Below, one piece after another: positions 8,698 through 19,575 of a DNA stretch of 33,176 nt. Location of the stretch: assembly GCA_946629065.1 (NCBI GenBank), contig CAMOXK010000017.1, positions 1 through 33,176 of the forward strand. Direction: 5' to 3'. The notes beneath the pieces are model-generated. The model saw only the letters and a list, made by a program, of their open reading frames with translations. It did no database searches and was not told where the DNA came from. Source of the DNA: an uncultured Clostridia bacterium (lineage in GTDB: Bacteria; Bacillota; Clostridia; Oscillospirales; Oscillospiraceae). Numbering within the stretch: the first letter of the stretch is position 1; each line of letters starts with the position of its first letter. Made by a program: the position numbers and the translations under genes.

Positions 8698-9705
8698 TCA
8701 CTGTATTTTCCCGGCCAGGAAGCTTAGCTCATTTCCCGCCTCATCCCGCAGCAGATAGCAGCGGATGCGCCCGTCCGGCTCATAGACCGTGTCGATCCAC
8801 AGGCCCTCGCCCAGCCAGTCGCAGATCCGGTAGCCCCGGTCCAGATCCTCGAAGGGGCCTTCGACCCCGCCCTCCCACTGGAGGACGCCGTTGGTATCGC
8901 AGATCCCCCGGAGGAGAAGCCCCTCGTTCACGGGCAGCAGCTCCGGATCTCCCGTGTGCTCCGGCAGGGCATAGACCAGGTCCTCCCCGCCGCTGAAGCT
9001 GCGGGCCACAAGGCTTCCCGCAAAGCCGTACCAGACCCGATCCTCCAGCACCAGAGGGGGCGAGGCCCCCTCCGGGCTGAGGAGAAACTCCCGACCGCTT
9101 TCGTTCCGATAGAGGATGCGTCCGCTGTCGGCCTCCCGGTAGAGGATGCCCTCTCCCATGGGCCAGAGGAAGGAGCAGGGCCCCTCCAGCACAAGGGTGT
9201 CGAAATTCCGGGCCATGTCCAGGGCCTGGCCGCGGCCCGCCTCGTCGCAGTAGTACAGCAGGCCGCCCCGGGCGGTCAGGCAGCTGCAGGGCCCCTGGCG
9301 CATCAGCTGCCGCTCGCCGCCCTCCGCCGAAACCCGCTCCATGGCGCCGGTGTCCCGGTTGATGTAGCAGAGCCAGCCGTCCACATAGCAGAGATATTCC
9401 GGCACGCAGCCCTCCGCCAGCACCCGGAAGCCGGAGAGCTTCCCGTCCTTCCAGGTATAGCGGGCCAGCACCGGCGTCCAGTCCTTGTCAAAATCATAGC
9501 AGTAGAGACTGCCCTCCCGGTAAAGCACCCGGTTGGCGTTCAGCACCCGGGCCATGGCCTGGCTTTCCTCCAGACTCAGGCGGATCGGGGCAAGACGCTC
9601 TCCCGCGGGCGCGCCGCCCTCGCTGTCTGCGGACTCCCGGCTGCACCCTGCCAGAAGCAGCAGAAGCAGCAGAAGCAGCAGCAGCGGAAGCAATCGTTTT
9701 TTCAT
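8698..9705 (-). CDS. Lipoprotein with beta-propeller-like repeats, unknown function
   Basis: 335 residues from ATG 9705 with an AGGGGG ribosome site. The signal peptide MKKRLLP is followed by 11 consecutive leucines and the lipobox LAGC, so the mature protein is a lipid-anchored surface protein. The rest holds repeated short aromatic/Gly strands (LCYINRDTGAMERVS, LLYYCDEAGRG, ILYREADSGRILYRN), a pattern seen in DUF5050-type beta-propellers that present six or so blades. I recognise no catalytic motif. It has its own sigma-A promoter, divergent from the barnase-type lipoprotein gene, so the two may be co-regulated. The poly-Leu tract is encoded by a 9-nt tandem repeat. The functional class is inferred from the sequence pattern only. 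Confidence 0.75.
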   Translation of the reverse strand: MKKRLLPLLLLLLLLLLLAGCSRESADSEGGAPAGERLAPIRLSLEESQAMARVLNANRVLYREGSLYCYDFDKDWTPVLARYTWKDGKLSGFRVLAEGCVPEYLCYVDGWLCYINRDTGAMERVSAEGGERQLMRQGPCSCLTARGGLLYYCDEAGRGQALDMARNFDTLVLEGPCSFLWPMGEGILYREADSGRILYRNESGREFLLSPEGASPPLVLEDRVWYGFAGSLVARSFSGGEDLVYALPEHTGDPELLPVNEGLLLRGICDTNGVLQWEGGVEGPFEDLDRGYRICDWLGEGLWIDTVYEPDGRIRCYLLRDEAGNELSFLAGKIQ

Positions 9706-9737
9706 CCCGGCGGCACCCCCTTTTTTCAGATAAGGGA

Positions 9738-9770: not shown

Positions 9771-9799
9771 TTGCAGAGCGCCGTCCTTCGTGGTACAAT
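9771..9799 (+). promoter_or_regulatory. Sigma-A promoter of the barnase-type lipoprotein
   Basis: TTGCAG, 17 bp, TACAAT with TGG in front (extended -10). Only 4 bp separate it from the -35 box of the divergent promoter, so the two polymerase sites overlap. Confidence 0.78.
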
Positions 9800-9826
9800 A
9801 AACTGAACAAATCTCCGAAAGGATGA

Positions 9827-10453
9827 ATGAGCATGGGCAAAGGAAGAAAAAGCCTGGCGCTGCTGCTGATGCTGGCGCTGCTGGCCTCGCTGCTGATGGG
9901 CTGCGCGGTCACCCCTGTAAGCGAGGCACCTGCGCAGAACGGCCAGAGCCAAAGCACTCCGGTTTCGGATGAGCTGGTCTTGCTGCCGGAGGAGGATTCG
10001 ACAGGGGAAACCGGTCCCGCGGAGGCTTCGACCCCGGCGGAAGACCCGGCACCGGCGGAAGATCCGACCCCAGCTGAGGACCCGGCACCGGCGGAGGACA
10101 CCGCCCCGGACGAGGACGGCAGCTATACCACCAAGGAGGACGTCCTTGCCTATCTCATCGCCTACGGCCATCTGCCCTCCAACTTCATCACCAAGAACGA
10201 GGCCCGCGCCGCCGGCTGGGAAGGCGGCAGCCTGGAACGCTACTGCCCCGGTAAATGCATCGGGGGCGACCGCTTTGGCAACCGGGAGGGCCTGCTGCCT
10301 TCCGCCAAGGGCCGGGTCTGGACCGAGTGCGATATCAACACCCTGGGCAAAAAGTCCCGGGGGGCCGAGCGCATGGTGTTCTCCAATGACGGCCTGATCT
10401 ACTATACCGGGGACCACTACGAGAGCTTTGAACTGCTCTACGGCGAGCCCTGA
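9827..10453 (+). CDS. Lipid-anchored barnase-family ribonuclease (microbial RNase N1/T1)
   Basis: 208 residues from ATG 9827; an in-frame ATG at 9833 fits the AAAGG spacing about as well and may be the true start. Residues 1-26 are a lipoprotein signal ending LLMGC, then a Pro/Ala/Glu/Asp-rich linker with PAEDP repeats (about 64-97). Residues about 101-208 align along their whole length with barnase: YGHLPSNFITKNEARAAGW, APGK-like CPGKCIGGD, FGNREGLLP, WTECDIN, TGDHYESF. All catalytic positions are kept: Lys123, Glu167, Arg178, Arg182, His197. It should cleave single-stranded RNA after G outside the membrane. Cys140, Cys144 and Cys168, absent from barnase, could form a disulfide. No barstar-like inhibitor gene is present in the window. 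A strong terminator follows directly. Confidence 0.92.
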   Translation: MSMGKGRKSLALLLMLALLASLLMGCAVTPVSEAPAQNGQSQSTPVSDELVLLPEEDSTGETGPAEASTPAEDPAPAEDPTPAEDPAPAEDTAPDEDGSYTTKEDVLAYLIAYGHLPSNFITKNEARAAGWEGGSLERYCPGKCIGGDRFGNREGLLPSAKGRVWTECDINTLGKKSRGAERMVFSNDGLIYYTGDHYESFELLYGEP

Positions 10454-10494
10454 AAAAACGATCCCGCCCCAGATCTGGAGGCGGGATCATTTTT
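10453..10494 (+). terminator. Intrinsic terminator after the barnase-type gene
   Basis: GATCCCGCC (10460-10468) and GGCGGGATC (10480-10488) form a 9-bp stem, with an internal CAGATCTG palindrome in the loop, flanked by A6 and by ATTTTT. Confidence 0.85.
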
Positions 10495-10503
10495 GCCGCC
10501 GCT

Positions 10504-10617
10504 TTCGACAAAATTCGACAAAACAAGTCCGCGGGAAAGAGCGTTCTTTGTCGAACACGCTTGTATGATGTCTAAGAAAATAATATTATGTCAACAAGTT
10601 TTCCGCGGGATTCGACA
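10504..10617. promoter_or_regulatory. Cluster of four Spo0A boxes upstream of spo0A
   Basis: TTCGACA at 10504-10510, 10514-10520 and 10611-10617, and its complement TGTCGAA at 10549-10555. These match the 0A-box core TGTCGAA. The first two are direct repeats 10 bp apart, one helical turn, as expected for a Spo0A dimer. The cluster straddles the likely promoter, which fits autoregulation. Confidence 0.8.
10561..10589 (+). promoter_or_regulatory. Possible sigma-A promoter of spo0A
   Basis: TTGTAT, 17 bp, TATTAT, lying between the third and fourth Spo0A boxes. A second candidate, TTGTCT with TAAATT 18 bp on (about 10624-10653), is weaker. No clear sigma-H promoter was recognised. Confidence 0.5.
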
Positions 10618-10732: not shown

Positions 10733-11530
10733 ATGGAAACCAAAATCCGCATCCTGCTGGCTGACGCAAACCCCGATTTCGCCGCGCTCCTGGCCGATAC
10801 CTTTGCCGCCGAGCAGGACTTGGAGCTCGCCGGCGCCGCGGCCGACGGGCCGGAGGCTCTGGACCAGCTCCGGAGCCTGAAGCCGGATCTGCTGCTGCTG
10901 GACCTGGTGCTGCCCAAGCTGGACGGGCTGGAGGTGCTGCGGCGTCTCCCCGAGACCGGCTGCAAGTGCCCGGTGATCGTGCTCTCCGGCTTTATGAACA
11001 GCCAGGTGGTGGCGGACTGCGCCGCCCTTGGCGCGGCCTATTTCATGCCCAAGCCCTGCGACACGGCTGCCCTGCTGGAGCGCATCCGCCAGATCGGCGG
11101 CGCCGGCACCGGGGACACCGCCCTGGAGGGCATTGATTGCCGCCCCGCGGCCCAGGCCCAGCGCCGGGAGGCGGATCTGGAGGCCCTGGTCACCGAGATC
11201 ATCCACGAGATCGGCGTCCCTGCCCACATCAAGGGCTATCAGTACCTGCGGGAGGCCATCATCCTCACCATCAAGGACATGGACATCATCAACGCCGTCA
11301 CCAAGGTGCTCTATCCCGAAGTGGCCAAGCGCTTTTCCACCACGCCCTCCCGGGTGGAGCGGGCCATCCGCCATGCCATCGAGGTGGCCTGGGATCGGGG
11401 CGACATCGAGGTGCTGCAGAAGTACTTCGGCTACACGGTGTCGAACATCAAGGGAAAGCCCACGAACTCTGAATTCATTGCCATGATCGCGGACAGTTTG
11501 ACCCTCCGCCAAAAGCAGGCGAGGCGGTGA
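10733..11530 (+). CDS. spo0A: Sporulation master regulator Spo0A
   Basis: 265 residues from ATG 10733 with GGGAGG 8 nt upstream. Receiver domain (1-120): phospho-acceptor Asp57 in [13 protein letters not shown], Thr/Ser position in VLSGF (Ser85), Lys107 in FMPKP. A linker (about 121-145) leads to the Spo0A-specific DNA-binding domain: [21 protein letters not shown], then the near-invariant [18 protein letters not shown] recognition region. This activates or represses early sporulation genes through 0A boxes once phosphorylated by the phosphorelay or orphan kinases. The acidic pocket is LADANPDF: the second of the usual two Asp residues is Ala12. The usual upstream neighbour spoIVB is absent; the neighbour is a secreted RNase gene. 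Four 0A boxes upstream suggest autoregulation. Confidence 0.98.
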
Positions 11531-19390: not shown

Positions 19391-19575
19391 GAACCGTAGG
19401 GGCTGCCGCCCTCTGTCAGCCCCAAGCCTTCCCCCAGCGGGGGAAGGTGGCAGCCGCCGATCCCCCGCGAGGCGGCTGACGGATGAGGGAGAGCCTTGAA
19501 TAACAGGATTCATTTTCACTCTCCCTCACCTGTCAGCTGCGCTGACATCCTCCCCCGCTGGGGGAGGAACAGCCT
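19391..19575. repeat. Inverted pair of two-hairpin repeat units
   Basis: A GTAGGGG element at 19391 is followed by a unit (GCCTTCCCCC/GGGGGAAGG, then CAGCCGCC/GGCGGCTG, then GGATGAGGG, about 19425-19490) and an oppositely oriented unit (CTCCCTCACC, GTCAGC-TGC-GCTGAC, CCTCCCCC/GGGGGAGG, about 19518-19570). They lie between the anti-sigma gene and the lipoprotein gene; the track start at 19496 is inside this repeat. Confidence 0.8.

Follow-up and report, generated by a model that had tools for sequence, protein, structure and literature searches.

Barnase and barstar form a textbook toxin-inhibitor pair and are assumed to travel together, and a surface-anchored barnase encoded directly before spo0A, with no inhibitor gene beside it, raises the question of how the cell that makes it avoids self-poisoning and what the enzyme does. 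The gene lies in the window, here the whole analyzed stretch of 33,176 nucleotides, which belongs to a 2.37-Mb genome assembly of 203 contigs and 67% completeness. The features that bear on the question are the following.

8698–9708, minus strand: divergent lipoprotein with weak DUF5050 similarity (below cut-off)
9771–9799, plus strand: putative promoter TTGCAG-N17-TACAAT with extended −10 (TGG), a consensus match
9818–9823, plus strand: ribosome binding site AAAGGA for the ATG at 9833, from the sequence
9827–10453, plus strand: open reading frame of the anchored barnase-family RNase, likely translation start 9833
9833–9904, plus strand: predicted signal peptide and lipobox L-M-G-C (Cys26 counted from the 9827 start), by motif only
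9905–10129, plus strand: acidic, proline-rich spacer of low complexity; PAEDP-type repeats span 10025–10108
10130–10432, plus strand: barnase/binase domain, from Pfam, PDB and AF2 matches
10460–10494, plus strand: rho-independent terminator-like hairpin GATCCCGCC/GGCGGGATC and T run, read from the sequence
10504–10617, no strand assigned: four exact Spo0A boxes (TTCGACA at 10504, 10514 and 10611; TGTCGAA at 10549)
10733–11530, plus strand: spo0A (TIGR02875, 311 bits), given as context and not as a functional partner

The open reading frame encodes 208 residues, or 206 from the ATG at 9833, which is the likelier start because of its spacing from the AAAGGA motif and the start position of orthologues. 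A basic and hydrophobic N terminus precedes the lipobox LLMGC (residues 22–26), and the signal peptide with its lipobox cysteine marks the product as a predicted bacterial lipoprotein. PF00545 is the sole domain found in the protein (E = 3.4e-19, 69.6 bits against a cut-off of 24), with no delivery or trafficking domain N-terminal to it; a PDB search matches residues 102–202 to binase and barnase (E = 1e-28), and an AF2 model built with 36 homologues (pLDDT 95.5) superposes on barnase crystal structures with a TM-score of about 0.9. Together with the catalytic residues K123 (K27 in barnase numbering), E167 (E73), R178 (R83), R182 (R87) and H197 (H102), profile and fold point to a barnase-type ribonuclease (PF00545, N1/T1 superfamily). 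Among relatives, E73, R83 and R87 are kept in 91/91 RNase domains and H102 in 87/91. The intact, surface-anchored barnase of the initial annotation, with its complete catalytic set, lipoprotein signal and PAEDP spacer, is thus borne out, and its anchoring is conserved: about a third of the listed orthologues have a lipobox recognizable by motif, and the others, some of which could be cleaved and secreted, have a hydrophobic N terminus without lipobox, so that the conserved trait appears to be anchoring rather than lipid. The spacer sequence is not conserved among relatives. The extra cysteines noted earlier are likewise real (C140, C144 and C168, at barnase positions 46, 50 and 74), but the disulfide suggested for them holds in part: Cys74 is present in 91/91 domains, Cys50 in 71/91 and Cys46 in 27/91, and a Cys50-Cys74 bridge is possible but not universal. 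Four relatives (G013, G085, G020, G066; L007, L145, L016, L149) encode two tandem RNase domains in one anchored protein, with Arg replacing the catalytic His102 in one of the two domains each.

No barstar is adjacent to the RNase or found anywhere in the window, and the gene does not form part of a linked barnase-barstar pair. The earlier statement that none lies nearby is therefore true of the window but incomplete for the genome, where a single barstar was detected on another contig (C45) beside a second barnase-like RNase. This second locus (L004:6229-7092) comprises a MuF-type, phage-like RNase toxin fragment and its linked barstar; the N-terminal part of the RNase matches the phage Mu F protein (PF04233), a delivery domain, and in the barstar Asn replaces the first binding Asp (YGANWNAFWD for YGxNLDALWD). 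We assign the C45 pair, a MuF-type RNase toxin and the inhibitor that goes with it, to a class already described (PMC3482391) and regard it as separate from the window RNase.

A candidate inhibitor emerges from the relatives. In a sample of 102 genomes of the same genus, a gut (largely rumen) member of the Oscillospirales, the anchored RNase was found in 84 and a barstar over the cut-off in 72, and most of these barstars form the C-terminal half of a protein of about 235 residues in which a low-molecular-weight protein tyrosine phosphatase (LMW-PTP) makes up the N-terminal half; the gene for this fusion lies at a locus different from that of the RNase. Pfam recognizes both LMWPc (PF01451, >100 bits) and Barstar (PF01337, 42–60 bits against 23.4) in the fusion, and its AF2 model has a pLDDT of 93.9. 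Barstar D35 and D39 contact barnase R83, R87 and H102; this DxxxD pair (D186 and D190 in the fusion) is invariant in 28 diverse fusions, as are the phosphatase active site CxGNxCRSP and the DP acid (C9, R15, S16, D125 and P126, comprising the C-x5-R-S loop and the DP general acid of LMW-PTPs). The C-terminal half can accordingly be placed in the barstar family by profile and inhibitory helix, and the N-terminal half among the LMW-PTPs, and because of this invariance both halves look functional. The phosphatase half shares fold, active-site residues and 36% identity with B. subtilis YfkJ (PDB 4etm); unlike ordinary LMW-PTPs, which end after about 155 residues, the fusion adds a barstar domain. 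No paper joining barstar with LMW-PTP was found in a literature search covering sources other than subscription journals, and as far as searched the genus-wide relocation of barstar onto a phosphatase is undescribed.

The fusion tracks the anchored RNase. It is present in 63/84 genomes with the RNase and in 3/18 without it (Fisher P = 6e-6, a test assuming an independence that these genomes do not have); with only genomes that have an assembled LMW-PTP considered, the figures become 63/67 and 3/14 (P = 3e-8 by the same test). The three RNase-less carriers (G071, G096, G105) are 69–86% complete, and G071, left out of the RNase-positive count, has a weaker match next to a linked barstar. Bare phosphatases occur in eleven RNase-less genomes at several separate places of the phosphatase tree, and no obvious barstar remnants were seen behind bare phosphatases in three forward frames. 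Four RNase-positive genomes have an unfused phosphatase, and three of these carry barstar alongside the RNase: G068 and G112, whose bare phosphatases are complete at 154–155 residues, have it as immediate neighbour, and in G066 it stands beside a tandem RNase; in the fourth, G086, no barstar was found. The near-complete, RNase-positive G091 and G110 have barstars linked only to a second, MuF-like RNase. On the phosphatase tree the fused/unfused label changes four times on the best topology, of which supported branches force one, and a tree-corrected sign test on independent pairs points in the same direction with too few pairs for significance. RNase distances correlate with those of the phosphatase domain (r = 0.48) and of barstar (r = 0.34–0.42), a mirror-tree result that shows shared history and does not single out barstar over the phosphatase. 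In this genus, then, barstar has apparently for the most part left the RNase and become fused C-terminally to an LMW-PTP at another locus.

Whether the window's own genome carries the fusion is best approached through a sister genome, G088, which is 96% complete and about 91% identical in DNA at the RNase locus. G088 has the anchored RNase, a MuF-like linked RNase-barstar pair resembling that on C45, and the fusion (L378:9323-10129). No LMW-PTP was found in the 67% complete assembly of the window's genome, and genomes in which no phosphatase was found are in general less complete (median 79 versus 86%, P 0.007). Base 1 of its contig C133 aligns 0.94 kb beyond the fusion, to L378:11066 onward at 93% identity, and the G088 sequence before L378:11066 has no substantial match in the assembly; the fusion locus consequently falls in an assembly gap, which makes its absence uninformative, and the fusion is likely present in the window's strain. 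The fusion locus of another relative, G024, is too divergent for a synteny comparison to be of use. The notion of an RNase without inhibitor is therefore not well supported, since relatives carry an unlinked fusion that tracks the RNase and the corresponding region is unassembled here: the one barstar recovered from this genome has its own RNase, and the locus expected to encode the cognate inhibitor is missing from the assembly.

Beyond the genus the arrangement differs. Among 394 genomes across the order, barstar was found in 82 (the window's own included), and outside the genus the RNase adjoins barstar in 26/30 inspected loci, none of which (0/30) is fused to a phosphatase; barstar is likewise linked to the RNase in loci L323-L338. 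A scan of named genomes recovered anchored RNases with linked barstar in Lachnospiraceae, Butyrivibrio, Clostridium and Paenibacillus, as well as 61 fused loci plus one (L322) with both domains in shifted frames. All 61 come from uncultured assemblies, many of ruminant origin, and with few exceptions these bear the label Clostridia, Clostridiales, Oscillospiraceae or Ruminococcaceae. Membrane-anchored barnases are thus frequent among Clostridia, and beyond this genus their barstar gene comes directly downstream. The linked barstar is accordingly, within what was searched, the widespread state and the fusion peculiar to this group. The linked pairs of Lachnospiraceae, Paenibacillus and other Oscillospirales (L324-L338, L348-L377) share with the window gene a signal/lipobox or hydrophobic anchor, a spacer and the RNase clade, and most clostridial members also the Cys74-type motif; they differ in that their barstar lies directly downstream and not on a phosphatase. 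In another family of the order, two loci (L352, L351) encode proteins with two or three barstar-like repeats beside MuF-style RNase fragments.

We propose, and consider probable, that the window gene encodes an anchored surface RNase from which a relocated, phosphatase-borne barstar protects the cytosol. After export through the Sec route the RNase would stay attached to the outside of the membrane by its lipid anchor, or in most relatives by a hydrophobic N-terminal anchor, while the spacer would let it reach through the cell wall to cut extracellular RNA. In clostridial anchored barnases the gene that follows normally encodes barstar; in this genus the inhibitor would have moved away and become the C-terminal part of a cytosolic LMW-PTP from another locus, and this fusion would bind RNase folding in the cytosol before export and so prevent self-poisoning. 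The mirror-tree result and the RNase-positive genomes without a fusion or a barstar beside the anchored RNase (G026, G075, G091, G110 and G086) count against this proposal. Physical inhibition of the window RNase by the fusion is what co-occurrence and residue conservation suggest. A functional coupling of the two halves, in which RNase capture by barstar switches or recruits the phosphatase so that failed export is sensed through a phosphotyrosine or phosphoarginine signal, is a speculative extension that we think rather unlikely.

An anchored barnase is in itself not new in kind. The window RNase shares fold and catalytic residues with Bacillus barnase and binase, as the relatives' fusion shares the DxxxD motif of the barstar-family inhibitor, but it is membrane-anchored with a spacer rather than freely secreted, has the additional Cys74, and its barstar is unlinked and apparently fused to an LMW-PTP. 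What sets the genus apart is that barstar has apparently been separated from the RNase gene, transferred elsewhere and joined to an unrelated phosphatase of the housekeeping type, and that most genomes without the RNase also lack it. This amounts to a natural experiment in the retention of inhibitors without linkage, and it cautions that apparent "orphan" toxins in fragmented genomes could have their inhibitor at a distant locus; why a phosphatase became the barstar carrier is a testable question.

The RNase could also be an antibacterial or anti-phage surface weapon, with the fusion as an immunity protein against sister cells, an interpretation that we judge unlikely. Polymorphic toxin systems, including those with MuF delivery, do use the same toxin and immunity domain families as Tox-Barnase and Imm-Barstar (Zhang et al. 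2012, PMC3482391), and the tandem RNase domains of four relatives would fit such a role; yet the window gene has neither a delivery module nor toxin-cassette polymorphism, its product is anchored rather than released, and its single RNase domain evolves slowly, at 66–90% identity between species. The genus' separate phage-like MuF-RNase/barstar pair, as seen on C45, falls within the polymorphic toxin class and suits the weapon role better. The window RNase has no match among 50,697 phage records, on which ground a phage origin of the gene was also rejected. The most likely function is surface RNA degradation, with RNA scavenging as the presumed benefit, chosen over antagonism because the gene lacks a delivery module, evolves slowly and does not lie in a phage setting.

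A less probable alternative, to which we give a small chance, is that the anchored RNase can do without an inhibitor because export tightly coupled to translation, perhaps together with oxidative folding through its cysteines, keeps it inactive in the cytosol, and that the phosphatase-borne barstar serves another purpose. Two RNase-positive genomes of 95–96% completeness (G026, G075), in which neither phosphatase nor barstar was detected, speak for it, as do the invariant Cys74 and common Cys50, which would allow folding only outside the cytosol. However, Cys50 is absent from 20/91 domains, leaving the disulfide short of universal, the presence of the fusion tracks that of the RNase, and relatives outside the genus retain a linked barstar.

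Very doubtful, too, is a role of the RNase in sporulation or late growth under control shared with spo0A, the link at which the initial annotation had hinted. The position itself is confirmed, the RNase preceding spo0A directly and on the same strand in 62/82 genes with enough flank, but the regulatory reading is not supported. The RNase has what appears to be its own, conserved, sigma-A-like promoter, a TTGC...TGnTAnnnT layout recurring upstream of most orthologues, and the terminator-like hairpin separates it from spo0A. At least two exact Spo0A boxes occur in the gap between the genes in 63/64 cases, and they belong to spo0A, since equally spaced boxes precede it in nine genomes with spo0A in which no RNase was found. 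No Spo0A box lies within 250 bp upstream of the window RNase, and one precedes the RNase in just 1/87 genes; control of the RNase through these boxes was accordingly rejected. Moreover, five genomes carry the RNase without detected spo0A (G063, G077, G083, G068, G112), the converse of the nine above. In RNase-less G124, G018 and G008 the divergent lipoprotein directly flanks spo0A, an empty site, and the position before spo0A is best read as inherited, conserved synteny. Spo0A was also undetected in G001, G069 and G103, and its absence from these eight genomes suggests that sporulation has been lost in part of the genus.

That the C45 barstar is the real inhibitor of the window RNase is the least credible proposal, for although no other barstar was detected in the assembled genome, this one adjoins its own RNase with a phage Mu F-like segment, reads Asn at its first binding aspartate and has no such linked counterpart in most genomes with the anchored RNase.

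Two further elements of the window may be recorded. Positions 19424–19573 hold a short imperfect palindromic element with nested inverted arms of 25 and 22 nt, which looks like a MITE/REP-type repeat; near-identical part-copies occur on many other contigs, three of them near C45:7540-7882. Positions 1428–1607 match the malK-I RNA (RF03069, 133 bits) upstream of a MalK-like ABC transporter ATPase (1515–2783), whose start at 1515 is probably set too far upstream, since the RNA match overlaps it.
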